The translations under genes and the position numbers were made by a program. From NCBI GenBank assembly GCA_921293015.1, contig OV121088.1:33579645-33643644 (forward strand): a stretch of 64,000 bases of DNA, read 5' to 3'. Positions 7,316 to 41,654 of the stretch are shown one piece after another. Under the pieces are notes generated by a model that ran no database searches, was not told the DNA's origin, and worked only from the letters and a program-made list of their open reading frames with translations. Positions within the stretch are counted from its first letter, which is position 1. Each line of letters opens with the position of its first letter. The DNA is from Phorcus lineatus. Its lineage: Eukaryota > Mollusca > Gastropoda > Trochida > Trochidae.

Positions 7316-9867
7316 TCATTGCGTACTGCAATGTCGTCTACTACGACCTTCATTTTTCTTGTAAAAAACAGACTTCACATTTTTGCACCTTATTTTTGCA
7401 ATCTTAGACCTTTTCTTCGATTTACCCTTTTCAGATTTTCTATTTTTTCTCGATTTCCTATTTGTTTTGGATTTTCTACTTTTTGATTTTTTAACAACAA
7501 TTTTACAAGGTTCTAATTTTGTGATAATCTGATTCAGTGCATGTCTCATATCAAGGAGAGCTACTGCAGTGTAGTCGACCTTGTCACTGTAGGAGATGTT
7601 TTCATGTAGCGGGAATTGGATGGTTGTGTTTCTGGTACAAACGCTCGACCTTTCTGGAATTTTGACGTTCATCTCTCTCACGGTGTTGAGCGCATACGTG
7701 GCAATTTGTTCTAATCGAGGTATCAGTCTCGACGTACTGCTTAGCATCAACATGCCTTTAAGTTCATGGGCGGTAGTCAGCATTGAGGTCAACCACCATG
7801 CAGTCTCGAATAGGTGACGAGCCTGAAAAAAAATGATTAAGTTAAATGTATGTTAAGTTTGATGATCCTTGTCATATTTTAGATACCATATGGGATATTT
7901 TAGATACCATATATGATATTTGATTGATATTGATTGTATGTTGAGAAGAATTATTACAACTTATTTTCATTTCTTTTAGATGCATGTACATTATTTTCGA
8001 TATTTAAAACTACTAGATAGATATTGGTAAACATACCTGTTTATTTCGTGGAATACCAAGCTTCATATTGTGCTTTTTACTCGCTTTCGGGTTTAATTCT
8101 TTTAAGCAGCATTTTCCGTATTTACGTGCATTGACGAAAATGTTCGCCTTTTTCTGAAACGAAAATTGATATAACATTTCATATCAAACATATAAATTTT
8201 TCCGTAAAGAGATAATCAATTAAACGTACATAATGGTAAATATAGTTAGAAAAGCAGGGCTTATCCAAGTTCATAATGGCTTTGACGTATTTTCTAGTTT
8301 TTTAATTTTAATTACAATTCATCACACTCTTTAAAGGTGCCGTCTTAATTTCATTTAAAGGCGTTTTGTAAGAGAGTTTACAAATATGTAAGTTAACAAT
8401 GGGCGTTACATGCTAGCCATGTGTATTCATTTGGTAAATGGTGAATGCCATACGCTTAACAACATCAAAACAAATAGTTACGACTCCCACGGAAAAACAA
8501 GGCTGTATTTTTTAAAACGCAATTTCCCTTCTATATGAATCAATTGTCTCCCCTTTTTAAAACAACGTGTAACTGATGTCATGTACTATAATCATATATT
8601 ACAAACTTATAATTGAGACATTGCTATACCTGTCACACGGATTATATTCTATGTATAAACACGGAACTATATGAAAATACATCAGTAGATAGATGGGGAT
8701 GGTCATTTTCGTTATGACGTGGTCCTTGAAATTCATTGATGAATTATAAAACTTCAAATGGCGTTGTTTTAAAGAATTTAACCACGTCCTTTTTAAACAC
8801 ATTAATAACGAAAAATCAAAATGTGTAATTAAAAAATCGTTATTATGCTATCAGTTTGAAACTGCATTCAAACTTGTAATTAAAAAATTAATACTTTTTA
8901 AAATTAACGTTATCAACGTTTTGAAATCATGTTCTTAAGACACAATCATTTAGTTGCTTCAAAATAGTGATATTTACAGATTTTAAAAGAATGAAATTTT
9001 AGAAATGAACGATTGAAAAGATTATTTCAAAAGATGAAACCAAAATAATTAAATTATAAAAGGGAAATAGCGACATGACACTTATGATTCACTTTATATA
9101 TGGCTCATCAAATGAACTATAAAATAATATAATCAGCGAAATAACTTTTCAAAATATAACGACTTCTCAAATAAGCAACCAAACGTATAATGCATTGTAT
9201 TTAAAGGAAAATCATGCTCGAAGGAACTATTACATTTTAAAAAACATTAAAAACACTTTGCTTACAAGATACTGAATTTCTTCTTCAATGGTGGTTGGCA
9301 ATTGTTTCTTCAAGAGAATGAGAAACTGTGGTATTGCATCGCGTAGTTTCTTCCTATGGAGTCTCACAGGAATGTTGGACATCGGATGTGGGCACACATT
9401 GACAGAAATGTGGTATCTTTCATCAAGCTTGTTGTCTGCCATATCAGACTGCATTTCTGGTACTGCCTTTGGGGTACATTTGGCCCACACAAGCGCGAAG
9501 ATTCCTGCAAAGAAAAAACAAATGAAGAAATTAGAGGAAAAATAAAAATAAAAATGAAATCAAATAAAAATTGTAAGAATAACAAACTATCAAAAGGCAA
9601 ATCAAGATTAGATTAAAATTAATTAGAATAATTCACCGTATTGCCTATAATGGATAATCAATTGAATAAATAATTATGAGCGATAATTAAAAATTAGATA
9701 CTGATTTTAAGTTTTTAACATTCATTATTCTTTTAAAGAATAAAATATTCATGTATCACTTATTTTGAAATTGCGTAATTACCTAAGTAAGAACGCTCAA
9801 TATATAAGACGGGCAATAAACATCCTTATATCTTACCATAAGATATGAGATTTTTCACGATGTTCAT
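7316..9867 (-). CDS. Gene A: secreted helical cytokine-like protein with polybasic tail (4 coding exons)
   Basis: Exons on the minus strand: 9867-9837, 9504-9266, 8153-8037 and 7822-7316. They join in phases 1, 0, 0 to give 297 residues. Donors are G|GTAAGA, CTT|GTAAGC and CAG|GTATGT. Acceptors are TTTGCAG, GTTTCAG and a T-rich tract ending CAG. The start ATG (9867) opens a signal peptide, MNIVKNLISYGIFALVWA, cut before KC. Predicted helices: A about residues 58-90 (LRDAIPQFLILLKKQLP), a long AB loop with CC at 105-106, B about 128-152 (ARHLFETAWWLTSML), C about 158-185 and D about 210-233. Cysteines are at 20, 48, 105, 106, 191, 235, 275 and 294. N-glycosylation sequons are at 194 and 204. 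Residues 236-297 are Lys/Arg-rich. The order of helices and loops resembles CNTF/IL-6 family ligands. That is an architectural inference, because no family signature is visible in the sequence. Exon structure is confident; the cytokine role is inferred. Confidence 0.78.
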
Positions 9868-9928
9868 TTTGTTACTCTGTTCTTATGATCTTTAGGATTT
9901 AAATGAAGAAAATAATTTTGGCGCAGGC

Positions 9929-9968
9929 TTTATATGATTGAATATACCCTGAAACACAGGAATTCCCT
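9929..9968 (-). promoter_or_regulatory. Gene A core promoter: TATA box with upstream kappaB-like site
   Basis: On the minus strand TATAAAG begins at 9934, 68 nt before the start ATG at 9867, so transcription would start near 9900 with a short 5'UTR. GGGAATTCCT, one base off a Rel/NF-kappaB palindrome, occupies 9967-9958, 25 bp upstream of the TATA box. The motifs are directly visible; their use is inferred. Confidence 0.5.
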
Positions 9969-12381
9969 TATTCTGCGTTAGAAAAACCGGATGGTGACTG
10001 TCAACACGGGGTGCCCGTCTTTATTTAAATGGGGTTTACCGCTTAGGATACCCGTATCTAAAAATACGTTTAGTAGGTCATCGTTGAATGGCGATCCCAT
10101 GTTTATAAAGAGGAAATTGAATTTGAAAGAGGATATTATATACATGATGTGTGTATGTTAACCTGCATAATGACAACGTATAATCAAGTATGTAAATTAA
10201 TAAGACAAATAAAGTTTAATCTTATTGGAAATTAAAATTAAAATTTCATTCGAGTGTGATATACAATGTACCTAAAGGCATTTCTATTGCGCGAGTCCTA
10301 TTGCTGTCGTCGAATAATGAATATTACTTGTTAAGTGTTGTTGTATGGGAGGTATTCCCCTCTATATATATATATATTTCATCACACAAGATATTTGTGC
10401 AAAAACTCTAATTCAGAAGTTTACCACAAATTAACACTATCCATTTGACATATTCATTATTTTGCGTTAAAAAATGTTCATGGAAAGATAAGTAAAATAA
10501 GTGAGAATAAGTGGGATAATTAAAAATGTTAATGACAACGGACGATACTTGATTCTCACTTTAATTGAATACGTTAATGTTCATTTTTACAAATAATCAT
10601 GGAAATATTATACAAAGATACATCTGTCTGTTGCTCAACTCCATGTGAAACACGCAATGTGTAATATGTTTCCTACTACGTGTGTACATAGTATCCTAAC
10701 ATTGCGAAAAATTGTTTCCATGTTTTCAAATTCTTGTTTTGTACGTACATCCTGCTAGAAACAGGATTTTAAAAATGTAATTCTGCTTGTGTACGGGAAG
10801 TTTTTGTAGTAAATTTCAGAAGTTTTCATTAAACTTTTTGTTAAATTTCGACCAATCAAGATTTGGCATTGTTTTATTTTGTGTGCAAAAGATGTCGTCT
10901 TGAGTCACCACAGCTTTATAATCACGAACTATTGACACATTCTTTCCGTTTGGACATTGTATATATATAAATATACATATATATATAATATTGTATATCT
11001 GTATTTTGGTAGAGAGACTTAAAATCTAAGGAACCGAGACTTTTTTTTAAAGTTGGTGTTTACCAAGTAGTATACAGTCGAGTACTTGGTATGTGAGTGA
11101 TGACTATTATAGGTATAAACAAATTATTGCTCGCATGCTTCAAGGGAATTGAAAATAGAAATAAAATAATGTGTGGCAGAGACATAATGCATGGAGCCAT
11201 TCCAGCAGCTCCCTCTTTGTTGTGGAATTGACAACATTTGAACATTACATGCATCAGAATGTAAGCTATTCATTTAAACTAGCTTTTATATGATAAGTGC
11301 CCTTAAAGGAATAACACTTCTTTGATTAAAGTGCAAATATCATTAGATGTATGAACGATTTTCATTACGTTTTTAAAGGTATTTGGATGTATCATACATA
11401 AGATAACCATGATATTATTTTATAACATCATTTTTAATCTGAGCATACAAACGTTTCGGAATACTAAGTTTAAAAAAAAGATATATAGTTAGAAACGTCG
11501 TGATTTTCTTAAGCATGCCACTTTAAGATGCCATACCAGAAACTAGCCTATCTCTTCATTGCACCTAAATGTCTAAATTAATAGCTAACCAACCCCGCTG
11601 TGATGCTAAGTATACCTTTATGAATATCAAATAATGCACAATTTGAAGTATTCGTGAGGGAACAACACCTCGGATTATACTTTTATTGAAACATTACTTT
11701 GTAAAATCTTTGATATCAACAACAATGTCATTACAAATGTAAGAACATACATAGAAGTAAACAATGTTCCTATGTGTGGATATTTTCCATGTAATTATGA
11801 TACTTCCAATTGAAATCTATGAAAGCTGATAAGACAAAATATATTTTTTTACACATTTGCTATGCTTTTAGTAATATAAATACAAATTATAGTGTTGTCA
11901 ATATGTGAAACAATCTCTACCAAATTGATATCTAAATCAATAAAAAAAATAAAAATAAAGTAGTATTATACAAATATATGTTATACAAATATTTTATCAG
12001 CATTTGCTACCTTTATATGCTTAGTACATGTGGGTAATAGATCATTTGCTGAAATAGAAATTATACTAGTATAATAGTATGTTTTAGAAATATACTACTA
12101 CATATGCATTTATCAAACATTTCATGAAATACACGCATTAAACAGATTTTCTGTAACATATATACTTAACAGTGTTATGTAGATTTTAATACCAACTATA
12201 ACAATTCATTAATGTACATTTAATTCATCCTATGTGACGTGTGTCATAATTATTTGACGCTTTGTGTGTAATAAGGGTTCCAGTTGACTGCAGAATCCAT
12301 CTCGATACAGTAATTAAATAGATATAATGAACTTAATAAGACAACTAGAATGAGCCAACTAGTGACTTACAAATAAAAGAC
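9969..12381. other. Intergenic, upstream of gene A
   Basis: No coding exon or recognisable repeat seen apart from short TA runs near 10365 and 10965. Confidence 0.55.
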
Positions 12382-13176
12382 TTAAAGAGCCACTCCGTGA
12401 GTTGTTGGAGTCATATACGCCAAACTTAATCAATGGTGTCATTTGATCGCGAAGTATCCACTGTTACCAAAAAGACACATTTTAAAGCTTAATGGTTTTG
12501 TTTACAGTGACAATATGAACGTCGCAATTATGATCGAAAACCGGACAGTGGCGCGCGTCAAATAGTCAAACGTAATTTTGGAATCTTATCTAAAACTGCC
12601 AAGAGGGCAGTTAGGAGTTGATAGCGTTTGTTAGGTTATATAACTAGTATAAATGTATATTGGACGTGATATCTATACCTCTGTGCATTTATAAGGCTGT
12701 TTTTAGATTTTCATGGAAAACCAGTATTTGTCATATATATGTCTTTTGGACATGAAAAATTAGGATGTTTTGATTTTATATAATAATAGCATTCTTATAC
12801 CGCGCATATATCCATGACAAAGCATGCTCAAAGCGCCATGAGTATTATTACCCTGGAGGGATAGTACTTTCGGTGCTGCCGATTAACAAGCGCTCCGCGC
12901 GACCGTATAGGTCCGTACTTCCCCCTTGTTCAGGTACCCATTTGGGTTTACAGCTGGGTGAACTGAGTGCAAAGTGGATGAAGTGTCTTGCCCAGGGACA
13001 CAACACAGGATGAGACCCAAGTCACAAACTTTTGGTGTCTCCACCGGGATTCGAACCCGGGTCTCTGGCGTGAGAGGCAAGCAAGCTTACCACTACACCA
13101 CTGTGCTCCACTGTGACATTTAGGTTCGTATCAAAGGTAAATAATATGTTATGAAAATCCCGGAGTGGCTCTTTAA
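12382..13176 (+). mobile_element. TTAA-flanked MITE, copy 2, interrupted by a nested SINE
   Basis: Both ends are intact: TTAA AGAGCCACTCCGTGA at the left and CGGAGTGGCTCTTTAA at the right. The inverted repeats are about 15-17 bp, with TTAA on each side. Between about 12784 and 13111 the MITE sequence is replaced by a tRNA-derived SINE. About 10 bp of MITE sequence seen in other copies (TATCACCACATA) is lost at the junction. Confidence 0.8.
12784..13111 (-). mobile_element. tRNA-derived SINE nested in MITE copy 2
   Basis: On the minus strand the head reads as a tRNA: A box GTGGTGTAGTGGTAAGC, B box GGGTTCGAATCCC, with a CCTCTCACGCC anticodon-arm-like stretch that recalls tRNA-Glu/Asp/Gly types. 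The body contains GTGTCCCTGGGCAAGACACT, a block I recognise from metazoan SINEs. The tail ends in a GCGCGGTATAAGAATGCTAT region with ATT-type repeats. This is a SINE rather than a functional tRNA gene, because the tRNA acceptor stem does not close and a long body follows. Confidence 0.75.
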
Positions 13177-15344
13177 GGTGATAGTATTGTAAAATTAATA
13201 GCACTTCTTTGCTTTGTTTTTATTCATTAACATTGTGAATTAACTCTAGGTAATAAGTTCATTTGATTAATTGACATTGACTTAAAATATGTGTTCCTGT
13301 ATAGGTTCAACTTAATTGTACTGTTTGATATAATATTAGGTATGTAATAATATAATATAATAATATAGGTAATGTTCTTCTTTAGTTAAATTTCTCATTC
13401 CTCTCCAACGGACCTCATTTTTGTTATTTTCTATTTATTATTATTTCAAAATACGATTATCACAAACCTTTCTTTCGTGGGTTCTTTTTCATGTAAACTG
13501 AATCAATTTTCACTGCAACAACCTGCTTCACAAAACTTACCTCTAAATGTCATTACATGATTCAGATAAGAGTTTTTTATTTACCACACCACGTGCTTTA
13601 TATTGTAACTACTTTTTAAGAAATGGCTAAACTAGGTCGAAAATCAGAATGTTTAAATCGGAGTGTAAGGTTAACCATGTTTATATAATCTTGGTTTACT
13701 TGTTTTTATTCTAACTACTTAGGTTAAAAATGTCTATGCTCATGCTATCAAATATATAAAATGTTTGTAATCTGTTATGATACATTATTTGTATTTTGAT
13801 CAACAATTTTCAATGATTTTATTGTGACTTGCATTATTACGACTAGTCGATATTTACAATGTTTTTATTCTGATTATTTAAGGTTTAAAATGTGTTATTC
13901 GAATTATTCAATTATTATCTATAATACATATCATACTCTCTAATTCGATTAAGCTGCCAATAAAGGTTTCGTAAGTGATGATGTATACAAAATATATATA
14001 TATATATATAGACCTAAGAGTGAGTAAGAGTATTTGCGTTAATCATTTCAGGTATACTGAATTCAAATAGGTTTTTGGGATCTACAGAAATATATGACAA
14101 TGATAATAACACTAAATTACCGAGATGATAAAGGATATCCCTACACATGTCGTCGGCTGGGGATATACAAGAAGTTCACTACATTCGAAAACAGACACAT
14201 GTTTTAAACTTCCTTTCCGTTTCGTAACAACACCTATGCCACCTAGCGGTTTTACAATAGTTTAAAAAATTCGAAACTAAATACTGAAATGTAATGTATC
14301 TTTTCAACTAAGAAAAATCTTCATTTAATTCTTAATATTTATATCGCTCTACAATACCAACTTATTTCATTGTTGATAAAGCTGTTATTCAAAGCATTTA
14401 GAGACCTATCATTACGAGAAATATGATAATATGCATAGCTGAGTCCAAAGAGCTTGTTCATGTAACTTTGTTTTTTCTATACGTGGTATAAAGGCAAACT
14501 AACACAAATTTTTATATTTCAGAAATGCAAAGTATGTATCCGGAGTTTAACACATTAATATATGGCTCACTCTTCAATGTAGAATGTTTAAAGATATTAA
14601 CATGAATAGTAATTGACTTTCACATCTTCCACTGGTCAAGTTTAAATCAAATAGTATCTTTACAGTATGTCATGTCAACATATTACATATTTAATGCTGT
14701 TGCATCTCATATATCTTTACAAAATATTTTAAAATTACTTGTAATAAGGTATGAAACTGTGCGAAAAATAGAAAATAGGATTCTATTCGGAAAATGTTCT
14801 ATTCATCTTCTTTAGAACTCCCTTAACCCTTAAAATTGAAGATGATTAAATCAGCCACAAAATAACAATGAAATTCGACGATATCCTATGATTTCATTTG
14901 GTTGAAGTATGAAATTCCTATAAACTATCATGATTTGATAGTGCAAATACAACCTTTATGTCTATATCAGCTATGTTATGTATATCATTATATCTATAAA
15001 CATTCCTACCGGGTCACATAAAAAATTAAAAGCTCGCTGGTGTCCCTCGTTTAGTGCAACTTTGGTATAAATGCCTATGCCAATATCCACTATTTTTTTT
15101 ATATAGGGTGGCTTTAAAAGGACCTTTAAGGCAGTAATACTTAAATGTAATAAACAAACAAGATTATCCCTTCCATTTTTTTACTATAAGATTACTTTGT
15201 TCAGTTACACCGTCGATCGGAGTTAATCACCCCGAGAATGAGAATAATCAAAATGAGATTGAGTTAATTAGTGAGGTGGGTTTAACGTGTTTTGAACAAT
15301 ACTTCAATTATCTAACAAGTGGATGACAAGACATATATGACAAG

Positions 15345-15600
15345 ATTACAGCATCCAAAAGAGTGGACAGATCAGGGAGAAAAGGGGTCGAAAGGTTGAG
15401 ACAACAGCCCAAAAAAGTACATATAGAGAGAAAGACACCAGATCGTGAACGTACAGAATTTGGTCTGGCTTCTACCCGTCGACATGTCCAGCTTCGGTGC
15501 CCCTACCAGGAGCATGTAAGCTCCGGCTGCTATAGCTCTCGGAGTCTCTGAAGAACCCAAACCACCATGCCCCAATATGGTATTGAGTCATGTGGTGGTA
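15345..15600 (-). mobile_element. SINE-like repeat, third family, inverted copy
   Basis: On the minus strand it reads CAGAGACTCCGAGAGCTATA, CGGAGCTTACATGCTCC and GTCGACGGGTAGAAGCCAG, matching the element at 24385-24625. It abuts a short tandem of GGTATTGAGTCATGTGGT units at 15578-15620. Confidence 0.5.
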
Positions 15601-17664: not shown

Positions 17665-17692
17665 TGACCTCTTGTGACTTTGACCTGTGACC
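17665..17692 (-). promoter_or_regulatory. Cluster of nuclear-receptor half-sites with a DR1
   Basis: On the minus strand GGTCACAGGTCAAAGTCACA followed by AGAGGTCA contains AGGTCA-A-AGTCA, a DR1 of the kind bound by RXR/HNF4/COUP receptors, plus two further half-sites within 28 bp. No gene start is recognised nearby. Confidence 0.25.
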
Positions 17693-18363
17693 GGGCATTA
17701 TGACCTAAGTGACATCCCACAACGAGTACCCGGCTAGCGATGTTTTCATTGGTCATTGGACAACACTGCGTAGATACGCTTATGTCATATGAAAAGTAAA
17801 ATCTAGGAAGCTTACATTATTAGAAAATATAACTTTATGAATAATTTCCGTTTATTCGAACAGGTCACAATGACTTTATATCTTTCTCGGAATTAAGATT
17901 TCTATGAATGAGGCCTTTTACTATTACAATCCGAACAACGGGACTTTATATACTGAAGATGTTAAATAGGTATTCCGTATATTATTTTCAGGGAGCAGAC
18001 TGTTTGATACATATATGTTTCATGGTTGACACAATAAAAGATAAATGTGCGTGTATATATAATTTTAAATGATCCATTAGGCAGTATCTCTATTTCTTTG
18101 ACATGTATAAAATAAAATAAAAATGTTCCGATATCTCAGAATAGTCAATGATGGATATTGATGTTTTGACTAAGAAACATTGAGGTACAAATTCGTAATA
18201 CTTTTATATAATTATCAGGCGAAATGATTAACACAAAATGCTCAGGGTTTTACTCAAACATCATTAACCCGATATTAACTCAAAACTATTACTCTCTGGC
18301 GTCCTTATAAACTAGCAGCCAAGTAGCTATGGATTATCGTTCATCTTACCTTAAAGCTACTTC

Positions 18364-20934: not shown

Positions 20935-21140
20935 ACCCAGTTCCTTATCATGGTGTGCTGGCTTGTGTGACTCCGTGGCCCTTAGAGCTACGTCAGCGGG
21001 ATCCTCAACGCTCCCAGCAGGGGCAAAAAAGCTGTAGAGTTCCAAGCGTCTCTTGTGTGTCTTTTTATGGCAATATCCCCGTGCTATAGCTAAAAAGGTG
21101 CCGACACCACCTTAAACCCTACTCTCTCACTCATCCTTTC
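20935..21140 (+). mobile_element. Possible SINE-like fragment
   Basis: A GC-richer block with GCTGGCTTGTGTGACTCCG, GTGCCGACACCACCTTAAAC and an end CCTACTCTCTCACTCATCC. Its base composition and CTCACTCA-type end resemble the third SINE family, but I cannot align it with confidence. Confidence 0.3.
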
Positions 21141-23194: not shown

Positions 23195-23670
23195 TTAAAG
23201 AGCCACTCCATGATTTTCATAAGATATTGTTTACCTTTGATACGAACCTAAATGTCATATGTGGTGATATAAAATCAAAACATCTTAACGTTTCATGTCC
23301 AAAAGACAATATATGTGACAAATACTGGTTTTCCATGAAAATCTAAACACAGTCTTATAAATGCACAGAGGTGTAGATATCACGTCCAACATACATGAAT
23401 ACTAGTTATATAATCTAACAAACACTATGAACTCCTAACTGCCCTCCTGGCTGTTTTAGATAAGTCTCCAAAATACGTTTGACTAATGACGCGCGCCACT
23501 GTCCGGTTTTCGATCATAATTGCGACGTTCTACCTTCATATTGTCACTGTAAAAAAACAATAAGCTTTAAAATGTGTCTTTTTGGTAACAGTCGATGCTT
23601 CGCGATCAAATGACACCATTGATTAAGTTTGGCATATATGACTCCAACAACTCACGGAGTGGCTCTTTAA
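23195..23670 (-). mobile_element. TTAA-flanked MITE, copy 3
   Basis: Full length (476 bp) in reverse orientation. It starts TTAAAGAGCCACTCCATGA and ends CTCACGGAGTGGCTCTTTAA. TTAA is kept on both sides. Probably the best intact copy in the window. Confidence 0.82.
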
Positions 23671-27854: not shown

Positions 27855-27997
27855 AATTGACCAACACAACATACTGCCTGCATAGTGTAAAGCTGTCAAG
27901 AGAGATATGAACATGTTCGATATATCTTCACAGATACTGGGTACCAAGACTCATAACTTAAGCTATCGGAAAAGTTCCGAACGTAATGCTGTTAGAC

Positions 27998-30610
27998 CTA
28001 ATAGTTGCTTTCATTATTCCTTTCGTTATTTTTTTTCGGTTTGCGTTTCTTCTTCTGTTTTGATTTTCTATCCCTTGACTTCTTCCCTTTGTCTTTCTTT
28101 CCTTTCTGTTTCCTTCTTCTTTGTTTCCTACCTTTTCGTTTACTTTTCCTCTTTTTATTCCCCTTTCTTCTGTGTTTCTTGAGTTTGCCACAGGAAGGTG
28201 TCGGTTTGCACGAAAGATCCTGTTTGAACAACATCGCGCCTTTCTTTCTCATGGCCTTTTTGAGACATGACCGAAGGTATCCTAATTTACTAATGGTCTG
28301 AAGTTCAAAGGAATAAACGTTTGCCCTACTAATTGTTTTTGTTTTCAAGGAAATGAGACTAATTCTCATCTTTGTACCGATCTCGGATTTTGACCTCTTT
28401 AGCAATCTGCAAAGAAGTTCCCGTGCCTTTTTAGCCTGTGCTATTTGTTTATTAGCTGATTTATTTGCCCTTGCATCTAGGATTAGCTGCTTTTTGGCAT
28501 CAGAGACCCAGTCCAAATCATTGGAAAGCGCTTCGATGACCGTTGATGTGTTGTGCAACTGTAAATAGAATGTTTGTTACTGAATAATATGAACTCGAGA
28601 TTGATGTATAACATATAATGTCAAATTATTTTACGTACAGAAAGGTTGCATGAATCGCAGAAAATCAGTACAATATGTATGCAAAAATAATAGGCATGAA
28701 CATAAATCTACCTATTTCAACTAATGACTGCCAAATTAAAATTTTGCTTTGGAACACTTAATAGTCTTAATCCATAAGGGAAAACCTAACGGTGATGCCG
28801 TTACCTTTCTCAGGTTAAGTGATTAAACGCTCAACAATATGCTGTCGAGGAGGTTCTGAATTCTGAGTAAACCCTATCCTTTTTCGAAAAATAAATTTAA
28901 GGAAATTTTGTTTTTAAATCTTGAGCAGATTAGATTTACAGAATTTATATTCGTTGCAGGATATCCATGATGATTCATTCCCTCAATTTCACCATTAAGT
29001 GTAAGTTTATGCTAAATACATTTTCTTGAGACTTAAACATCTCTTTTAAAACCCGTTTATCCGTTGTCGTAGAATGTAGTTATCATATGAGAAGAGAAAG
29101 CATTATTTACGTCACCTAAGGGAAGTGAATTCGCGCAGCGTATCCGAGTAGATATGTCCTTGTATTGATTAAAATGATAATGATGTAATTGATAACATTT
29201 GTTGTCTTTGTGAGATCCTTTTATTTCCTGCAGAAATACGCTTCAGTCTCTTTAACTGCATATGGCATATAATCACTTCAAGTGCTATCAAAATCTGCTA
29301 TATTTGACTTCCTTTCATAATCTATTCCTTTGAATTTAGCACAATATTTTAAAAAAGGATGATTAGACCACAAATAGGATGTTTTTATGTTTACAACTTT
29401 AAAATCCTGATATGAAAAAAAAAGATAATATGTGCATGAATATGAGTTTAAAGTTATGTAGATATGTGAGTGAATAAATACGGATCAAGCTGCTTACCTT
29501 GCATTGCTCCTCCTTGAATGACCCTGCCTCCTTGTAATAACTTTCAGGTTCCTTAAATATGAAAATATATGTTGTTGCTAGGGTAATCAGTATTATTTGA
29601 CTCTTCATTACTGTGAAGGGGTACGAAAATAATCTCAAGAAATACATTGTATTATTTAATAGTAAGATATATTCTGATGTACTTGATACATTTATAGCTC
29701 TTTCAAATTAATTTTAATCGTTACTGTGATTCCTAAGTCAGTGCACAATGTACTGCACATGCTGTTAATGCCTAGAGAAACAACACGTACATATTATCCT
29801 TTAGAATTACAGTAAGTTGCTGATTAATAGGCAAGGTGACTTTCAGTTTTACCGTTCCATTCATAATTTGAGAGTTTCTTTTGTATTTGTATTGTTTAAT
29901 GATGAATATCTCTCTGATACTTGTCATTAACTAGATAATGCTATGTTCTACCAACTTTTACCAGTAGTTTGTTGTATTTCTTTAATGTACGTCTCAGATT
30001 TCTAACCAGGGAGCGATCGCTTTTACTCGTAGCGTTCCCAGGCAATGTGCACCCAGATGCAAAAATGACTGCAAAGGCAAGAATTGAAATTGGTATGTAA
30101 TGCATAAGCTTAAATAAATATGATACTTTGTTATGATCAGTTAGATAACTGATATCATTTGATAAGGAGGGTAACATTATATCCCCTATCCCCTTTAACT
30201 CTTACCTAAGCCTCGTATCAAAATGATTAAACTATGCAAAGTTACATTAACCTTGTTTCGTAGCAATATTCAATATTATTTACCATATGCATAATTAACA
30301 TATACGAGTATATATCAATTATGATTTACCTCACTTTCTAGATCCTTATAAAAAAATTACTTCTTTCTAATGACAATTAAACTTCAAACTTCAAATTTAA
30401 AATATTTAAAATTAAATTTCAATATAAGACCACAAGTGTTAACACAAGTTTTAAGTTAACATTTGAATAGATATCCTAAAAAATGAGTATTTCACTTAAC
30501 AAGTTTAACTATAAGCAAATTTCTTCTCCTTGTTCGTTAAGAAGCCCTGATAGAACGGTTAACTTACTGATATTCATCATCACGTAGATATGCCATATGA
30601 CTTTTGTCAT
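27998..30610 (-). CDS. Gene B: secreted helical cytokine-like protein with strongly polybasic tail (4 coding exons)
   Basis: Exons on the minus strand: 30610-30568, 30068-29962, 29551-29498 and 28558-27998. They join in phases 1, 0, 0 to give 254 residues. Donors are TCA|GTAAGT, CTG|GTAAAA and AAG|GTAAGC. Acceptors are CCTTTGCAG, a weak ATATTTAAG for exon 3, and TATTTACAG. The signal peptide is MTKVIWHIYVMMNIIIFASG, ending before Cys21. Helix A is SLVRNLRRTLKKYNKLL (about 34-50), followed by an 18-codon exon 3 with Cys67. Later helices lie about 72-98, 104-125 and 148-175. Cysteines are at 21, 67, 118, 166, 185 and 191. Sequons are at 26, 71 and 100. Residues 192-254 are almost only Lys, Arg, Gly and Ser. 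Exon 1 is the same coding length (43 nt) as in gene C. An in-frame ATG inside the exon-2 region (30105) could give an alternative signal-anchor start, but the spliced model matches A and C better. Exon 3 is the least certain piece. Function is inferred from architecture. Confidence 0.7.
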
Positions 30611-30660
30611 TTTTATCTGCATACCAACCTATGGTTTGAATCCACATGCATCAGTTGATG

Positions 30661-30668
30661 CTTTTATA
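30661..30668 (-). promoter_or_regulatory. Gene B TATA box
   Basis: TATAAAAG on the minus strand starts 58 nt upstream of the start ATG at 30610, a textbook TATA element and spacing. Only a weak Rel-like word (GGAAATTTA, 30687-30679) lies just upstream, so the kappaB arrangement of A and C is not clearly present. Confidence 0.5.
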
Positions 30669-30689
30669 CTTTTTGAAATAAATTTCCTT

Positions 30690-33600
30690 TTTAACTATAA
30701 TTAGCGTGTAACATGTGACACCTTAATAATTGTTTCACATGGAAGAGTGGTGTTAACGTTTGTTCGTAATATCATATTGTTCTTTCCATAACAGAATCAT
30801 ATGTAATTGTCAAACAAGCTACCGGTTTCATAACAACATCTTCTCATAATAACCTTGCAATATACCTTGCAAACAGACTTTGGACTTATGAATATTCATA
30901 TTTCCTTAAAACCATTCGTTAATGACAATGAATACTTTCGTAGGCGATCCTTAGTAAAACAAATGATCTGCAACGGATCTTGATGTAAACGGATTCAGAT
31001 TCATGTAATTAGATTCACATTCGAGAACTTATTCCTTCCTTCCATAGCACGGAATCTTCCTATGTACACCATCACCGTCTAGGTTTGGTTTTCGAATCCG
31101 AACTCAACTTTACTTGCTTTACTGCATGTAGGTGTTCGTGGTATATTTCGGGCGTTCAAATGTTCCATTAGATTAGCCTATTGCAGAAATTTGTTATACA
31201 ATGTTTTTTATTAACATATGTTCTGTTGTATATTCAGTTGTTTTATGCATAAGAAGATTGCTTTATTTATAAAAAGGTTCACTTACCACAAATTTTCATT
31301 CAAATTATTCATTTATTTACAATAACCAAATATTAAATGAATAAATTGAATTACTGAATTGAATTGAATTGAGTTCAAGTAGATGTCAAACTGTAGACAC
31401 GAACACAATATTTTGAAATCTATCACAATGTATCATTTCGATAGAAGTATTGGTAAACTTTAAACTTCAGTTTTCGTTTGAGAATGTTTGTGCTGAATTG
31501 GCAAATTGAATAATTGCAAATGTAAACTGATTTCTTTATAACGAAAAAGTCCACCTCTACTTCTACATGTAAACATACATGAACCATGTCCAATTCTAAA
31601 CACCAGTGTCATTCGTGTATTTATAAAAGGAGGACTCCGAGTACCATGGACTCATACATGTACAAATATATTCACCACCGTTTGCAAGGATATATTCAGG
31701 ATAGATATTTTGAGTGTTCATGTTCTGTCTTATGTTAATTAGCGACTGAACTTTGAAAATTGAAAAAAAAACTGTTTCAGGGTGGTCTTAAGGTTTTATG
31801 TGATTATTAGCTAATGTGATCATAATTGTACACAGTCGATACCATATTCATATTCGTCCGTTTTGCTTTTAGTTGTATCTGTCTTTATTACTTACTACTT
31901 CCAATATTGCTGCCAACACGACAAACAGCGCCCTCTTCGGCGAAAAGTTGTTGTTCTCAAAAGATTTATCATGAGACTATGAATATCTGTCGCAGCAGCC
32001 TGGACGGCAAGGCCTTTCCAAGCTGGTCATTTGGGCTTATGAAAGAATAGGCCAAATGAATACTATTAGCGTCTCAAGGTGAAGTTGATTATGACAGGCT
32101 TTTTTTACACGAGAGAAATGTTATGGTTATATTTTAAAAACGAATTTTACAATTAGATAAGGGGAATGATAGCGAAGTGTTAACGCGTTTGACTTTGGAT
32201 CATGTAACTAGCCTTCGAATCCCGCGAGGGGCTTTGCTGTGGAGAATTGTAGTAAGGCTTTGGTGCAATGCTACACTGACTTTCAGCGCACTACCAACCA
32301 TGGTTTGCTGGTAACAGCCGATGCATGCAGGTTTTTTTTACAACAATGCCAAGCCACGATAGCGCTGGATAGATTTGAAAGGGAATCCGATGCATTAGGT
32401 GGAACACCTCTGCTTGGTTGGCAAACGTGGCAAACCGGCAAACGATTAGCAGTTGGTCGAGTCACTTTTCGATCGTTGCACACCAGTCGGTGGACGAAAT
32501 TTGATACTTTTCAATATTAGGAGGAAACCATTGAGATGTTGTACAAGAGTTCAGCAACAAACATTCTAGATGTGACACAACAAAATGGAGGGGAAATTTC
32601 GAAATACCGGACAGCAGTTGGTAGACTCACATTTGAAATTCTGCAGAACGTTAATTACTTGGCAACGAAACTGTGGAAAAAAACTGTGATAAGTTGAAGA
32701 AACATTGCAATCTGTTTTTGGACATATTTTACACTTTATTTTTCATTAATTCCTTTAAATTATACGTCATAAGTCAACTTAACAAATGATGACTCATTTT
32801 GACTCTAATCGGTTTTCGTCCTGTTCTATTTTGCCACTTATTTGTATATCATTTTACATTTGGGGAAATTTAATCAAATAAATGACTGATAAAATATATG
32901 AAATGTTTTTTTTGGTTTAATCATATGTCCCAAAACAATATCACGAATATGCGGATATGTCGATAGCATCGACCCTATCTGTCCAATATTAATAATTGTT
33001 TTCCTAAAATCTTAAACAAGGGAGGGATGATATGAAAGATTTTGATAGCAAATTAATAGTAGGACTGCTATTTAATCAAAAGAACCAATGAACACTTAAA
33101 AACCAATTAAAAGAAAAGGCGTGAAGATATCATTGAGTAAGTTAATTCTTCATTGCGATGTTGAAATTATCTTACAAGGAAAAAACCTCTGTTGAAATAT
33201 TTAAGTTTCACTATGAAAGATGACGAAATAGTGATTTTATTTGTACTCATCAATGTGTACTCAGAAAATGAATTATTTCCTGTATGTCACATATTCATGT
33301 TTAAAAATCCAGTTCAAGTCTCCCCATTCATAAATGTGAATCAATGGGAATGAGTCAACCAATGAGAAATCTTTACGTCATCATGACGATGTTAAGAATA
33401 AATCATTCCTCGGGAATTGGGTCAAGTGAGGAAGAGGTTTGTAATCCACTTCCTATAAATAGCCTCAACAGTAGTAAAGTACCTGTTGGCTAGGCCGCTG
33501 AAATGGTATGTGATGAAATGAAAATATATTCGAAATAAAAGTTTCCCTTTGGAAAAAAGATAATTATTGTCCGGTTAGTCAGACTGTATAAACGTACATA

Positions 33601-36600
33601 ATTAAAGAAATGCGAACCTGTCTTACAATAACACAAAGCTAACCGTTAGCCTGATAATGAGACACCGAACTAGGATGACCTTCGACTTGGGGCGGTAGTA
33701 TGTTAGTTAGGAAATATTTTCCTAAGATCTCAAATTGATATATGTCTCTGCCAAATGTAATATCTTCAGGGGGCGAAGTACTTCATTACTCAACCCAACT
33801 ATTCGTAGTCGTGTAAGAATATTCCAGGTATCAAGTGAAAACTACATGCTGCCATTTTAGTGTGAACGTATTTAGATTATTTAAGGTGGGGAAATGGATT
33901 CGCTGGTACGTTTGTATTAAAACTGTATTTTTTCTAAAGTAAATTCTACAGTCTGGCAATTGGCAAAATTTAATTGAGTGTTCATAAGATAACTTTGTTT
34001 AGCTAAAAATCCTTGCCCCTTTAAATCCAAAGTGATCGGTACAAAGGTTTCTAGACATGCACATCGTTTCAACTTCATCTAAAAAGGGGAAATTTATAGT
34101 TTTCCCACACAAAAGTTTGTGTTTACTTTTTATCGCGTTTCAATGAACAAACAAGATTATCAATGTATGTGTGTTCCTTCCAAATTTAGCTGTTGAGAAC
34201 TTATAAGGAAATTACTTTAATTAAAGTTCAACGAATACCCTAAATAATATTTCCGCCAAACCATTTGTGAACAAAAAATAATCTCCCCTACCAAGATATC
34301 ATAACATTTCCTTAATCAGTAAATGTGTAAGAGTAACGAAGCGTTTTTATCGGAAACACCTCTGTGTTTACCGCTTAAAGGAAATGTGTTTATGCAATAA
34401 TTATGACGAAATCCTCATGTTTACCAGTATCTGAATATTCAAGTTTAAGAAACTGACTTTGGTTATAACAATTAACTAGATATGACTTGTTCGGAGATGT
34501 TTAAATATCATGTTATTTTCAAACATATGATTTGCTTAAATTGTCAAACGCTATTTTCATTAACATTTAGAAAAATGTTGATATACCGTTGAAATAATGT
34601 GAATGTAGCCTCTAGTTACGATCATCTGTGTATGGTCCCAACAAGCAAAATAAGTTTTTCTTAAAGTTGCACCTTAAATATTGTAAAGGCCAAGAAAGCC
34701 CTGTTCTTGCGGACATTCTTCATTCAAGGTTTTCTTTACAACATTTGATTTACAGATTATGCCAATCAAGTTATACGGGTCGAGAGAGAGAGAGAGAGTA
34801 CATCATTTGGCCTGTAAACGTTCAAATATTGGTAAAAGGGCTCCAAATGATTTAGTTTTTTGCGAATGTGGCAGAGAGCCTGTTTATTAGGCTACTTTTT
34901 TTTGGGTGATTTAATTTTGGCTTTGAGTTACTGACACATCTACTCATCGGTATTCATAATTCGGCTGTGTAACATATGTAAGTTAAATATGGTTGAAGAT
35001 GAATTTTATTTGTAACACTGTGCCAAGAATTCTGAGCTTAAGATCTACCGACCTCATATGATTCAAAAACTAGTTTCATCAACTTAAAAGTATCTTGTGA
35101 AACCAGGGTTATCATTGCGCTACAACTCTACATGTAGAGCCATCATGCACCGCGTCTAAGAGGACAACTATTGCAACCTGGTTCCTGGGCCTCGTTCCGC
35201 TTGCGCTTGTTTGCAACCAGGTTGACAACTATTGTAATATGTTATTCCCAACCTCCTCTATGTTACCGGAAGTGTATTCACCCGACGCCACGCGTACTTA
35301 GATGAACTGAATGAGAAGATATCACATGTAAGGAGATGTTTAAATATCGTTGTTTTCCCAGATATATAACAGTGCTTTCATTGCATAATCATTGTGAAAT
35401 AACTTGTTAAAATGCTATTTTAATATCATATTTAGCAAAAAAATATTACATTTAGTAACCTTGATTACAACTAGCAACATGCAGCGCCTTTAGATGAGGA
35501 TCTTTATTTGTGTCAGCAAAGTAGCGATGAATTACCTCGTATACATAAGAAATTGTCAAAACGAGTTAAGAACTGGAAAATTACGAAAATCTGTATTTTA
35601 AATTTTATCCAAGGGGTAGTAGTACGTTTTTTTGTAAATTTCAGTTTGTTTTTTTAAGCATAAAGTTTTATCTTCAAATTTATCTTCTCATTACTCTATC
35701 CGGTCAACCGGAAAATTAATCAGGGATCAAGAAAAAAAACATTTTTGTGTACACGCAATTTAGTCATTTGAGGTAGGGAAATTGATTCGCAAAGCTTAAC
35801 TGAACATGGTACGGTGGTTTCACAATTGTGTCTGTTCATTACATATCTTCGTCAATTTTCGTTTACTTGAGATCTCTTTAGTTACTCAAACAGTCGTGCT
35901 ACTGCTCCTTTCAGGATCTGTATTTTCACATTTAATGAAAATAAATTGCAAGTTTTTTCAAGGTAAGTGACTTACACTATTTTGTCTCCTGCAAACTTAT
36001 CATTTCTTTATTTTTGAAAAGAATCAGGATTGACATAGATGTGAAATGCAATCATCGTGTATCATATGATAGATCATACTATTGCAAATGCAAGTCGATG
36101 TTTAAGAAAAAATACAACATAAAGGGCATTAAATGAAATATATTCACAACGAATCAAGTTGCCAAATCATCAAGCAAAGACGTGAATGGATTTTAGAATT
36201 TCAGTATGATGACCAATCTAGTTAAAACTAGTTGTAATATAATACGCCCGAAGGCAGTTATTACATCTAGCGAATTAACTACCTATTCCGTGTCGAGCAG
36301 GCGCGAACATCAGCCTATCAAAAGAGAGTTGGCCAGCTCTTCGAAACGCGGGTTAATTGTTTCGCCGACTTTGAGCACCTCGATTATCAATGAATGTCGC
36401 AATGAATTGTGTCGAAAACAATTACATCATCAATTCTGTGGAAATTTATGCATTTGTTCAAAAGTAAATCAACAAATTAGGTCAAACAATCATAATATTA
36501 GTTTTAAAGGCTAGACATAGACAAACGTAGGGTAAACGTCAAAATTTTACTTTTAACCAAGATGCAAAAGAAACACGTCTTTGATTGGTTGAAAGCTGAC

Positions 36601-36814
36601 TTCCTACCCTCATTTTATTAGTCAGATCAAAATTCGGTAAAGGTCAGCTGAACATGACCTCAATCAGTATCTCTCTAGATGTATTGACGGATCTAGGGTT
36701 AACAAGATTGTATGATGACAGGTACTCGCGGAAATTAAAACACGATCCTAACTTGTCATTCACAAGCGATCGAAAATGCTCAAGGTCACTATCGAGGAAG
36801 TTTGAAAAGGAGTC
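30690..36814. other. Intergenic between genes B and C
   Basis: Contains the SINE head at 32165, a (GA)n run near 34782, an (AATTG)n patch near 31345 and faint direct similarity between about 33880 (GTGGGGAAATGGATTCGC) and 35770 (GTAGGGAAATTGATTCGC). The 102-codon plus frame 36206-36514 has no recognisable feature. No exon identified. Confidence 0.5.
32165..32240 (+). mobile_element. tRNA-like SINE head (A and B boxes)
   Basis: TAGCGAAGTGTTAACGC resembles a Pol III A box, and GCCTTCGAATCCCGC some 35 nt later resembles a B box. The sequence that follows (to about 32520) holds a 93-codon frame with no recognisable domain and may be SINE body. Confidence 0.4.
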
Positions 36815-37078
36815 ATAAAGCTTATTTTAGTTTGTTTAATTCATAAGGTATATTAGTTCAATGACCTATAGCTACATGTACCAAGCACTACCAACCTATA
36901 TGTGTCGTTGTGTCTTCTGTAAATCGGTTCCCAACATTAACCTTGTGAGTCATTGGCGCGTGCAATCGCGCGGTTTTCGATCACAAAAACCCGACTGTAA
37001 CATGTTTATCGTCGCTTTAAGATACAAATTATGATCAAATTTCGCCATTTCAGAAGTTTGACATGTTTGACCACATCA
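36815..37078 (-). mobile_element. Truncated relic related to the TTAA MITE family
   Basis: Contains GAGTCATTGGCGCGTGCAAT and CGGTTTTCGATCACAAAAA, equivalent to the GACGCGCGCC...CGGTTTTCGATCATAA block of the family, but lacks clear ends. It ends about 60 bp before MITE copy 4. Confidence 0.4.
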
Positions 37079-37139
37079 ACATACATGCCTATTTAAAATC
37101 TAAAATATGTGACTACTACAATGTGAATAGATGTGCAGC

Positions 37140-37586
37140 TTAAAGAGCCACTCCGTGAGTTGTTGGAGTCATATATGCCAAACTTATTCAATTGTGTCAT
37201 TTGATCGCGAAGTATCGACTGTACGACACATTTTAAAGCTTATTGGTTTTTTTACAGTGACAATATGAAGGTAGAACGTCGCAATTATGATCGAAAACCG
37301 GACAGTGACGAGCGTCAAATAGTCAAACGTAATTTTGAAGACTTATCTAAAACAGCCAGGAGGGCAGTTAGGAGTTGATAGTGTTTGTTAGGTTATATAA
37401 CTAGTATCCATGTATATCGGACGTGATATCTACACCTTTGCGCATTTATAAGGCTGTTTATAAACTTTCAAGGAAAACCAGTATTTGTAATATATATTGT
37501 TTTTTGGACATGCAAATTTAAGATGTTTTGATTCTATATCACCACATATGACATTTAGGTTCGAAAATCACGGAGTATATCTTTAA
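37140..37586 (+). mobile_element. TTAA-flanked MITE, copy 4
   Basis: Starts TTAAAGAGCCACTCCGTGAG. The right inverted repeat has decayed to CGGAGTATATCTTTAA. The internal blocks are those of the other copies. Confidence 0.78.
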
Positions 37587-37639
37587 TGGTTATATAAACT
37601 GTATGACATTGCCGTCACTTCCAAACAATGTATCCAGTT

Positions 37640-37865
37640 GTACTACTTAGTTACAAGAGGCACATTTCTAATTAAGTCTCTTGCTGAAGGTGACACCACA
37701 AGTCTCTCAACTCGTGTCTCAATGTGAGGCACTGAATCACCCTTCAGACTTTAATTCTGTTCAGCAATGAGAAGGTCACCCACCCATCAAGCCAGTCGTG
37801 CATGTTGTTGTTGAGCTTCACTGAAAGGGGTCTATAGTGCATCGCAAAGGACCATGTGCCGCCAT
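37640..37865 (-). mobile_element. Degenerate SINE, same family as 60698-61060
   Basis: Shares CTCGTGTCTCAATGTGAGGC and CACCCACCCATCAAGCCAG with the copy at 60698-61060 in the same orientation. The tail half is missing. Confidence 0.5.
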
Positions 37866-39092
37866 AAAAAATCTAAGTTATGTTCCATTATCTGTACGAA
37901 TTTTCTGGCTTTAGTGTGGTTATGTGTTCGTTATATACATATAATGTTATACAAAATGCTCAATGTTTTGAATGAATTTAATTTCAACGGCATATACCCA
38001 TTGAATAAAGCATGAATTATGTTTTATCAAGGTTTATTATGTGGACAATCTATTCCTGGTCTATTTCTTTATTTGTCTTCAAATAAAGGCCAATTATAAA
38101 CTTACAAATGTAATATTTAACCCCTAAGTGTTCATTTCACCTGTTTTTGAGAATGTCATTATAGATAATGAATATAAAGAAAATAACTGTAAAAAAGGTT
38201 TAATGTTTATTCACACAAACAATAAATAAAACTGATGTAGAAAATAATAACGTTAACAACATTTACTGTAAATTATGAATACAAAGATACTGGAAGAAAA
38301 CAATGTACGAAACAAAATAAAGAGTAGGAATTCTTAAGCAAATGGATCAAATCAGGTACAAACCAAATATAAATAACGAAATATAACTTATATAACAATT
38401 AAACAGTAAAACGGTGTAAAAATAAATAACATGATAAATAAAAGTCTCTTTATCAAGACAGCGCAACCCTGAAAAAAACAATTACTAAAGTTCTGAATAC
38501 AAATTGACCAACTGTCTTTAAACCGTTTAAGGGTAATGTATAGGTTTTTGTGAAAGAGTTGATTTGTAACACTGCTAATGTTAATATCCAAACGGAAGGC
38601 TGAAAATGTATTTTGTCAAAAAACTATATTGGCTCAATTTCATGAGTAAAAAAATTTAAATATCATGATCCTTTTTTAAACCTCGAATTTCGGTAAACCC
38701 AACATTTTTTAAAAACATTATTCAACAACCATTTTTAATAGCGTCACCATCGGAACATCAACCCGTCATATAGAAATATTATCAACATACATGTAAACCA
38801 AGGACAAGCCATGATCTTTGATGCTGACGTATGCAAAACGTCAAGTTATTTTATACATAAGGAAAAACGTTAAACACCCTAAGTTTTTCACCAGTAAGTT
38901 TTGGTCTGGTTATGGCCATTTTCTAAAAATTATGGAAAATTCTTATCAAATTTCAAAACCCAGTTTTGTCCTTATTGTGAAGGATACATGATTTTTTAAA
39001 GTGTAAAATTGTACCGTAACATCGGAATCCATCGGAACTTTTGACAAACGGACGATAGTTATACTGGGTGAAAAATCTGTACCATTACGTTT

Positions 39093-39098
39093 TTTATT
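39093..39098 (-). terminator. Candidate polyadenylation signal AATAAA for gene C
   Basis: AATAAA on the minus strand about 290 nt beyond the gene C stop codon. Chance occurrence is common in this AT-rich DNA. Confidence 0.25.
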
Positions 39099-39385
39099 TC
39101 AAGTTCTCAAAATGTCATCATGTATGATGGTTTTAAAGATACTAAGTCACGAAAACTTAATTATTATGGGGATCCATTTAGTCATAGTGTCCTATTTTTC
39201 TCCACAGATGCATTTTGCAATTTTGAAAATAGTGGGGTGCTTAACTTTGTTCTCTATGTATATATATCCAAACAAAATCTTACATAAAATAAAGCTATTT
39301 CCAATGCTGACTGCAACGACGATTGGCACATTGTATCATCAAACATATTTTGAAACAATGACATTCCAATCGTGCAGTAAACTCC

Positions 39386-41654
39386 CTATCGCCTTTGTCT
39401 CTTGCCTTTACCCCTTTTTCCCTTCTGACCTTTTTTGTCCTTCTTTTCTCCTCGCCACTTTCTTTTACCTCCTTTTCCTCTCCAACAGCGTTTCAGTACT
39501 TTACTTTCGCAATTGTTCTGGCCTTTTGCTAGACACTTTCCAAAGTCCTTAATAACTTTAACAACATTAGCAACACTTAAACTCTTTACCTTTTTAATGT
39601 CTAAGGTAAAAGTTTCCGAATCGTTAAAGCTGACGTAGTTGTTGAGTTTGTTCCACAATTTACATAGACGTTCATTTAGAACGTATAACTTAACAGACCC
39701 CTCAGATTCCTTCTTCACGTCGCAGGAACAGGAGTTGAGTAGAGAGCCACTGCATAATTTATTTTCATTTTCTATCGCAATATCTTCTAGCAGTGAGAGA
39801 TATTCTTGAAGAACCCGAGTTGAGATGTGCAGCATAAATTTTTCATCAGGCTGAAAATGAATATCGGTGCCATTAAAATATGCAGCAGATGAATAAATAT
39901 TGTTGAAATTCAATTTAGGTTCCTCAATGTACATTTGGATATTCCTTACCGTAATTAAACCAAACTCGATTCTCAGTTGTAATGCGAGAAAGTTCATCGT
40001 TTGTAGTTCAGGAAAATAAATTACTGAGAGCTTTAACTGGCATCATAATCAAATTCTATTATACTCAGTTCACCGATAAGAGACAGATTAATCTGTAACT
40101 ATAATGAAGATTATATCTAAAAATTCAAGGTTTACAAAATTTATTTGATGTGAATTCAAGTAACTTGGATTTATTTGTGTTACACATTTTGCCTTTTTGT
40201 AAATATATAAAATATATTAAAATATGTTTAGGAAAGAATCCTTTCCTGAAAGTTCTTTCTTTCACTCGAAAACCACTGATAAACTATAAGTAATTACCTC
40301 TGATGCAAGAGGGCACCGTTTCCATTTGCCCTTTCCTTCCCATCGTTTTAGAGTCTATGAAAAAAAACATAAATATATATATTATTCTTATTTTGAAAGT
40401 TTTGTTAATCATTCATTCACCAACGTACTTGATAAGAGACGCCAAGTACATGAATGCAATGAAAAAATATCATTATGATTGTAAAGGTATCACTAAACAC
40501 GGGTTATACCACGTTGATGCAATATCACAATTTCTTTCATATATTGTTTCTGAACCATGGAAATTCTCCAATTTTTTGGAGCTGATATAATATCTGACAC
40601 ACATTTACCTGAGTGTACTAAGTGTATTCTAAATCCATAGATAACTCGGATGCATAAATGTTATTACATAACAAAGCATTTAAGATTATGATAAGCATTT
40701 TCATGGTTTTGCAATAAAGCATCGTTACGATCTTTGATCAATCATAGAAAACTACCTTTTAATCAAGACGCTTCGATAGAAAGTATTTATTCATGTGAAT
40801 ATAAATTATATATATATAATTATATATAAATAATAAATTACTTACCTTAACTTTCAGAAAATTTGAAGCTGCTTCTTCTAATTCTATTCCAAGACTTGTC
40901 GTAGTAGCGGTCCCGAACATATGTCCGCATGTGTAGGCAGAGATAGTCCCCATAGAAACCAATTCTATATAAAACAAACATATGTCAATTATGATTAATG
41001 ATCTTTAACGGGTGAATTTAGACACAGGAATGTATCGATATATGTGAAAGAACATTATATACCTAAAAAACGAAACGTATATAATTTAATGAAGGTTTAT
41101 CCAACTCAATAGCCATATCATAAAACAAAACATAATTTCAAACATAAAACGGAATTATTATTGTGATAACCAGTAACATGGAAGGGTTTTAAGATAACTA
41201 CAGGTATGTTGAAATAAGCATGTTATTAGAATGGAAATATAATCCTTTACATATTTTAATTGATATAGCATAGAGATTGCAATACAGAACATCATAGAAA
41301 AATCTATTCGACTGTAGCTTATTTGAGAAACCAATGTTTGGAAAAAGATCAACTTTGGACTCATAAACAAAGCACAGGGTATAAAAACAAATGCACATTA
41401 TGAACTTAAAGAAGATTTTAGAAAATGAAACGTAAATAAATTGTCATAATGGTACAGAGACTCACAAATATCAATCAGTATTTAACATTTGGACTATATA
41501 CGATGTTGTAATATAACATAGTTTTAATTTTCAAATTTCGAGAAGACAACAAAAGATGAAGAACAGTGAAATATGATTGTTGAAAAGAATAACTAAAGCC
41601 CTTGAACTTACGTAACTGAAACAGGACGACCCAACTAATATCAAAAGACCTCAT
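39386..41654 (-). CDS. Gene C: secreted helical cytokine-like protein with polybasic tail (4 coding exons)
   Basis: Exons on the minus strand: 41654-41612, 40964-40846, 40354-40298 and 40036-39386. They join in phases 1, 0, 0 to give 289 residues. Donors are TTAC|GTAAGT, AAG|GTAAGT and GAG|GTAATT. Acceptors are TTTTATATAG, TTTTTCATAG and GATGCCAG. For exon 4, an AAG acceptor 6 nt further in would also keep phase 0 and drop two residues. The signal peptide begins MRSFDISWVVLFQLQLVSMG. Exon 3 has 19 codons with a Cys at 68, in the position of Cys67 in gene B and Cys105/106 in gene A. The last exon holds helices, for example VLQEYLSLLEDIAIENENKL and VANVVKVIKDFGKCLAKG, with Cys at 168, 176, 178, 198, 241, 249 and 257 and sequons at 128 and 211. 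The tail (250-289) is Lys/Arg/Gly-rich and ends KRQRR. Same strand, gene size, exon count and phases as genes A and B. Cytokine function is inferred. Confidence 0.68.

Follow-up and report, generated by a model that had tools for sequence, protein, structure and literature searches.

In a 64,000-nucleotide stretch of an invertebrate genome (C13:33579645-33643644; the window), we describe three predicted minus-strand genes, A, B, and C, and a family of helical proteins encoded immediately to their right. We lean toward the view that A, B, and C mark the left-hand end of an array of tandem genes for small secreted signaling proteins, helical in structure, that resemble class I four-helix cytokines. 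This view draws on the common exon plan of the three genes, their promoters, and the adjoining family, to which gene B is weakly tied by sequence.

Results

All three gene models consist of four coding exons, with GT-AG at every junction and no internal stops, and span 2552 bp (A), 2613 bp (B), and 2269 bp (C). The first-pass annotation, which had described three co-oriented genes of ~2.3-2.6 kb with four coding exons, is borne out in these respects. The intron phases of the predicted models are identical (1-0-0), and the predicted precursors are 297 (A), 254 (B), and 289 (C) amino acids (aa) long. Exon joins were set by eye to match the earlier description, with tests run afterward, and signal peptides were assessed from hydrophobicity alone. 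In gene A, exon 1 (9837-9867) carries the ATG, the first half of the predicted signal peptide, and a phase-1 donor; exon 2 (9266-9504) carries the end of the signal peptide, a cysteine, and putative helix A; exon 3 (8037-8153; 39 aa) encodes a putative A-B loop with a Cys-Cys pair; and exon 4 (7316-7822) encodes putative helices B, C, and D, a polybasic tail, and the stop. Gene B comprises exon 1 (30568-30610, with an alternative in-frame ATG at 30622), exon 2 (29962-30068), exon 3 (29498-29551; 18 aa), which has a strong donor and a weak acceptor, and exon 4 (27998-28558), which ends in a polybasic tail and stop and weakly matches the profile of the array family described below. The exons of gene C lie at 41612-41654, 40846-40964, 40298-40354 (19 aa), and 39386-40036, the last again encoding a polybasic tail and stop. 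The G+C content of the exons of A, B, and C is 38-40%, compared with 33% across the window.

The last exons of A, B, and C are the only minus-strand open reading frames (ORFs) of at least 178 aa in the window; in 60 windows simulated with an order-2 Markov model, ORFs of this length occurred at a mean of 0.03 per 64 kb, counting both strands. When open phase-0/phase-0 exons between exons 2 and 4 were enumerated using simple splice-site weights, the described exon 3 was the sole candidate in A and C. In gene B, it ranked first of five, and only once the acceptor threshold was lowered. The exon-3 scores were 8.2 (A), 6.3 (B), and 5.9 (C), with equally good candidates found elsewhere in the window at 0.008, 0.042, and 0.05 per kb, respectively. 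The acceptor of gene B exon 3 is poor (score -0.8), which weakens this model. A second exon 3 in gene B (29227-29111) is possible but at chance level (the rest of the window has 0.32 candidates of this kind per kb), and we rejected it. Scanning the window for a TATA box followed by a phase-1 signal-peptide exon and a cysteine exon returned A, B (as two nested starts), C, and one repeat-borne plus-strand match, while in 30 simulated windows matches averaged 0.23, with a maximum of 2; since this combination was chosen after the genes had been seen, the scan favors A, B, and C. Taken as a whole, the three gene models hold, as predictions, for frames, phases, and exon number, and the first-pass annotation is weaker for the exon-3 acceptor of B, the position of the exon-3 cysteine, and the helicity of the single proteins. 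On the plus strand, a 181-aa open frame (39007-39552) without a Pfam match runs antisense over the last exon and 3′ end of gene C and is probably a shadow of the coding exon.

The predicted mature proteins are 27-32 kDa in size, with isoelectric points (pI) of 9.6-10.7. Lysine and arginine make up 42-56% of their last 45 residues, confirming that the C termini are polybasic. Each protein has six to nine cysteines, placed just past the putative signal peptide, in exon 3 (one, or two in A), and in exon 4, where a pair 44 (A), 48 (B), or 43 (C) residues apart flanks the putative C-D loop. The exon-3 cysteines are at residues 15 and 16 (A), 17 (B), and 14 (C), within the range of 14-17 reported earlier; calling this position conserved is loose, since the lengths of exon 3 differ (39, 18, and 19 aa).

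Searches with trimmed queries revealed no homologues of A, B, or C at E ≤ 10 in a large protein collection (192, 58, and 306 word-sharing candidates, respectively). In our genome-wide searches, which covered the 957.8 Mb and 74 contigs of the same genome, the last exon of A matched nothing but itself at E ≤ 0.001 and that of C nothing but itself below E 0.6. No match was found in viral contigs for the last exons of A and C or in prokaryote contigs for that of A. Pfam, which includes a lysin model, gave no match to the sperm lysin family in A, B, or C. A match of gene B to DOT1L in the PDB (E 0.024), which covers a charged helical stretch, was rejected as compositional. For gene A exon 4, AlphaFold (predicted local distance difference test score [pLDDT] 47.5) places low-confidence helices at residues 2-25, 33-50, and 84-103, giving the order helix, 7-residue loop, helix, 33-residue loop, helix. 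This low-confidence layout suggests the one required for an up-up-down-down bundle; VIA-align of the model gave no cytokine that stood out.

TATA boxes are present upstream of the ATG in all three genes, at -67 (A), -58 (B), and -81 (C). In two of the three, a site matching the loose kappaB-like pattern GGG(A/T)4-5CC lies ahead of the TATA box, by 33 nt in A and 35 nt in C. The core promoter of gene A (9928-9967, minus strand) contains GGGAATTCC at -100, and an additional loose match is present on the reverse strand at -165. That of gene C (41729-41770, minus strand) contains GGGAAAACC at -116, and the TATA box of gene B (30662-30668, minus strand) has no kappaB-like match. Genes B and C also have in common an upstream 15-mer, TGAAACCGGTAGCTT, on the minus strand at 30816-30830 (B) and 41921-41935 (C); these are its only two copies in 304 kb. 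AU-rich elements in the 3′ ends were considered as well, and the idea was dropped, as the nonamer occurs in A only among the three.

We examined the 100 kb left of the window and the 140 kb right of it. On the right are nine last exons that belong to a single protein family, eight of them on the minus strand, plus one borderline case; on the left, no member was found. The extent of the array is a lower bound, as it may run on past the 140 kb examined. In window-relative coordinates and on the minus strand unless noted, the last exons of members D (65134-65556), E (90210-90680), and F (141045-141470) were among the long ORFs. Those of G (77007-77369; E value 2.6e-19), H (86354-86761, plus strand; E value 4.9e-60), and I (132802-133140; E value 8.7e-10) were detected with tblastn, those of J (163932-164273; E value 5.9e-07) and K (172114-172440; E value 2.7e-12) in a first profile search, and that of M (183816-184139; E value 9.8e-06) in a second. 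The borderline case, N, is at 200985-201344 (E value 0.0032). Used as a genome-wide query, member E found five significant places, all at this locus, and member K found two further places, at C1:11533855 (E value 2.8e-7) and C1:11599828 (E value 1.1e-6). This second locus consists of near-alike copies in opposite orientation ~66 kb apart, at C1:11533855-11534154 (minus) and C1:11599828-11600127 (plus). Members H and E form an inverted duplicate pair: 95 of 105 residues are identical, and exon 4 differs at 26 of 315 nt, 15 of them in synonymous and 11 in nonsynonymous codons, with 10 residue changes.

An invariant cysteine lies near residue 45-50 of the family last exon, whose final segment has the consensus RxYxIxRDxxxxL. 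When hydrophobicity is averaged by column across the nine members, its moment peaks at 100 degrees (z 4.13, reached in 0 of 1000 permutations) and shows no peak at 140-180 degrees, and the exon therefore encodes amphipathic helices rather than strands, although the nine are not fully independent because E and H are near-copies. The nine-member family thus has a mainly alpha-helical core in its last exon. Modeled back to exon 2, members D and E have an exon 2 entered in phase 1 and a phase-0 exon 3 of 33 (D) and 34 (E) aa, giving phases 1-0-0; the layout of J is the same, with an exon 3 of 25 aa. Phase-0 exon-3 candidates were also found for G (34 aa), K (30 aa), M (24 aa), and N (23 aa). Taken one by one, the scores for E, G, J, K, M, and N (3.5-5.7) are close to what the 4.2 kb searched would yield by chance. 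Exon 3 of E, G, K, and M nevertheless has an FP motif in common, and a proline is invariant in exon 3 of seven aligned members. Exon 3 is ambiguous for F and I, and no convincing exon was found upstream of H. The last helix and exon-3 loop of the family are reminiscent of IL-6/CLCF1-type ligands, a likeness that PDB profile searches do not confirm.

When the three genes were tested against the family profile with hhalign, exon 4 of B aligned from exon residue 7-9 through the invariant cysteine (P 0.019-0.02), and shuffled B sequences scored as high in 0 of 100 and 1 of 200 cases. Gene B is thus weakly tied to the family by sequence. The ties of A and C are place, strand, exon plan, exon-3 cysteine, tail, and promoter only.

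The window also contains an interspersed repeat of ~480 bp, with ends AAAGAGCCACTCCG, at 4216-4699, 12382-13176, 23195-23670, 37139-37563, and 53955-54437; the repeat end has 9 matches in the window compared with 0.15 expected. The copy at 12382-13176 is longer and has a tRNA-like match at 13044-13100, which is perhaps an inserted short interspersed element. Minisatellites are present at 53013-53156 (47-bp unit, 3.1 copies) and 62697-62975 (40-bp unit, 7.0 copies). Thirty other ORFs of the window gave just two Pfam matches, Benyvirus_P25 and DUF1636, both below cut-off. In the left flank, two long open frames on the minus strand (window-relative -96872 to -96120 and -70128 to -69427) resemble animal heme peroxidase exons, as judged by eye only.

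Discussion

How well does a cytokine-like array account for these observations? Several results weigh against it. A, B, and C are not similar to one another above the level of 300 shuffles, and neither A nor C scores above its own shuffles against the family profile. For B, the hhalign probability is just 2.3-2.4%, and its ORF is not significant in hmmsearch with the family profile (E 3.3-7.5). With A, B, and C as queries, no Pfam match passes cut-off (at E ≤ 1 there are only two sub-cut-off domains of unknown function), and PDB searches returned no cytokine and nothing of note. Pfam searches with D, E, F, G, J, K, and M, leaving out H and I, yielded no cytokine and no family reaching cut-off; in the PDB, the family, searched singly and by profile, matched no cytokine, the best profile matches being coiled coils and designed helices at E values of at least 0.026. 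The nine family members are without polybasic tails, and the three 400-nt upstream stretches contain 0 matches to STAT or interferon-stimulated response element (ISRE) patterns or to the stricter kappaB form GGGRNNYYCC. The last exons of A, B, and C had been described as helical; taken singly, their amphipathic periodicity is marginal (p = 0.115, 0.04, and 0.26, respectively), and it is the profile of the neighboring family that has the helical peak. The AlphaFold model of gene C exon 4 is uninformative (pLDDT 34.3) and has strands rather than a bundle; structure prediction, proposed earlier as a check and run on exon 4 of A and C, gave poor models of both. Finally, according to the excerpted text of PMC1626468, secreted proteins often have a phase-1 intron close to the signal-peptide cleavage site.

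The class I gene structure is present, as predictions, in A, B, and C and, from exon 2 on, in D and E; it is not specific and gives only moderate support, since phase-1 introns are usual at such sites. Because there is no Pfam or PDB cytokine match, we place the array under no named cytokine family. Class I helical cytokines diverge in sequence, and a sequence match does not define them. Of the earlier proposal of a single array of cytokine-like ligands, what stands is the adjoining family of nine amphipathic helical proteins, with phases 1-0-0 in D and E and a weak link to B. What counts against it is that no sequence link joins A and C with one another or either of them with B or the family, that no cytokine match was found, and that both structural models are poor. 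The IL-6/CNTF likeness proposed earlier for gene A is a resemblance in layout at most.

One alternative is that the right-hand helical family, perhaps with B, is cytokine-like, whereas A and C, though also secreted, are unrelated genes beside it whose intron phases happen to be the same. The missing sequence links of A and C would then be expected, as would their longer last exons, their different cysteine spacing, and the lack of polybasic tails in the family. Yet A and C agree with their neighbors in strand, adjacency, exon number, phases 1-0-0, exon-3 cysteine, and TATA distance, polybasic tails are common to A, C, and B, and the 15-mer is common to B and C. We regard this explanation as unlikely, though worth serious consideration; since it overlaps with the cytokine-like array, our odds for the different explanations do not sum to one. 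It is also possible, and again rather unlikely, that all of these genes encode non-cytokine proteins, helical, secreted, and lineage-restricted, such as fast-evolving reproductive (sperm-lysin-like) or matrix proteins. Such proteins would fit the fast divergence, tandem arrangement, helicity, and high basicity of A, B, and C as well as the failure to match a known cytokine. However, no Pfam family of any kind reaches cut-off for A, B, C, or the seven family members searched, and the six to nine cysteines of A, B, and C contrast with sperm lysin, which is not known to have any. A loop encoded by its own phase-0 exon, together with TATA promoters, would also better suit an inducible ligand.

Could the Lys/Arg-rich tails instead act directly on microbes, making these secreted proteins cationic host-defense factors? 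The high mature pI, the composition of the last 45 residues, and the kappaB-like sites in A and C are consistent with this idea, which we nevertheless consider improbable given the mature size of 27-32 kDa with a large core and the absence of the tail from the nine neighboring family members. Least probable of all is that the gene models are artefacts in which open frames have been stitched together. While the weak exon-3 acceptor of B and the failure to find homologues of A, B, and C would be explained, the ORF lengths, the exon-3 enumeration, the architecture control, and the adjoining protein family with the same phases make this very hard to sustain.

If A, B, and C do belong to a cytokine-like array, a mechanism can be envisioned. 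The TATA promoter, together with the kappaB-like site in A and C, would turn the gene on. After secretion and removal of the signal peptide, the protein, in A and C by common descent with the family, would fold into four helices, with helix A supplied by exon 2, the A-B loop by exon 3, and helices B, C, and D by exon 4, and disulfides could hold this putative core together. The Lys/Arg-rich tail of A, B, and C may retain the protein near cells through acidic glycans. The ligand would then crosslink a class-I-type cytokine receptor, leading to JAK-STAT signaling. A search for IL6Ra-bind domains in the same genome gave 0 matches, and 0 of 14 controls were detected by it either. IL6R, JAK, and STAT, without IL6, are reported from molluscs in the excerpted part of PMC13203501.

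A more tentative proposal, which we think possible but somewhat doubtful, is that the locus houses the ligands of an invertebrate class I cytokine/JAK-STAT system, about twelve or more four-helix cytokines of the long-chain type built on the exon-phase plan of vertebrate IL-6-type genes. If so, and if the host is a protostome, the IL-6-type gene plan would predate the protostome/deuterostome split. We recognized no paper describing such an array in the open-licence literature searched. The array is a good candidate for the missing cytokine signals of an invertebrate, and having candidate ligands at one mapped locus makes their expression, structure, and binding directly testable. Should the fold be confirmed, the shared intron phases would be evidence, beyond the reach of sequence comparison, that invertebrate and vertebrate class I cytokines descend from a common ancestor.

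Among known systems, the closest parallel is to the vertebrate long-chain class I cytokines (IL-6, CNTF, LIF, CLCF1, EPO, and GH type), which likewise have a helical core of ~200 aa behind a signal peptide. The vertebrate genes too have a phase-1 signal-peptide intron, later introns in phase 0, and a small phase-0 A-B-loop exon. The long-short-long loop layout of these cytokines is suggested for A by the low-confidence model, and the cysteines close to the mature N terminus and to the end of the last helix are placed much as in EPO. The differences are that there is no detectable sequence similarity, that IL-6 and GH genes have five exons rather than the four coding exons found here with helices B to D in one exon, that A, B, and C have a polybasic tail, and that the fold here is putative. 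The excerpt of PMC13203501 reports IL6 itself from jawed vertebrates only.

Other comparisons are by description only. The introns of teleost type I interferons (IFNs) are all phase 0 (PMC4929537, in excerpt), unlike the phase-1 first intron here. The Drosophila Unpaired proteins (Upd1-3), which are basic and clustered, are likewise secreted and divergent, and their receptor, Domeless, is an invertebrate receptor of class I. The three-dimensional structure of oyster CgIFNLP has been likened to class II helical cytokines (PMC9756803, in excerpt), and this protein differs from A, B, and C (27-32 kDa) in running as a band of ~15 kDa (PMC8218723, in excerpt). Like the proteins proposed here, the GH-like type I helical cytokine of amphioxus is an invertebrate molecule of divergent sequence, and the amphioxus genome is said to have several other divergent type I helical cytokines (PMC9010856, from the text excerpted). 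The amphioxus protein, 208 aa long, is encoded by just one chordate gene of hormone-like type, whereas the genes described here form a dense array.

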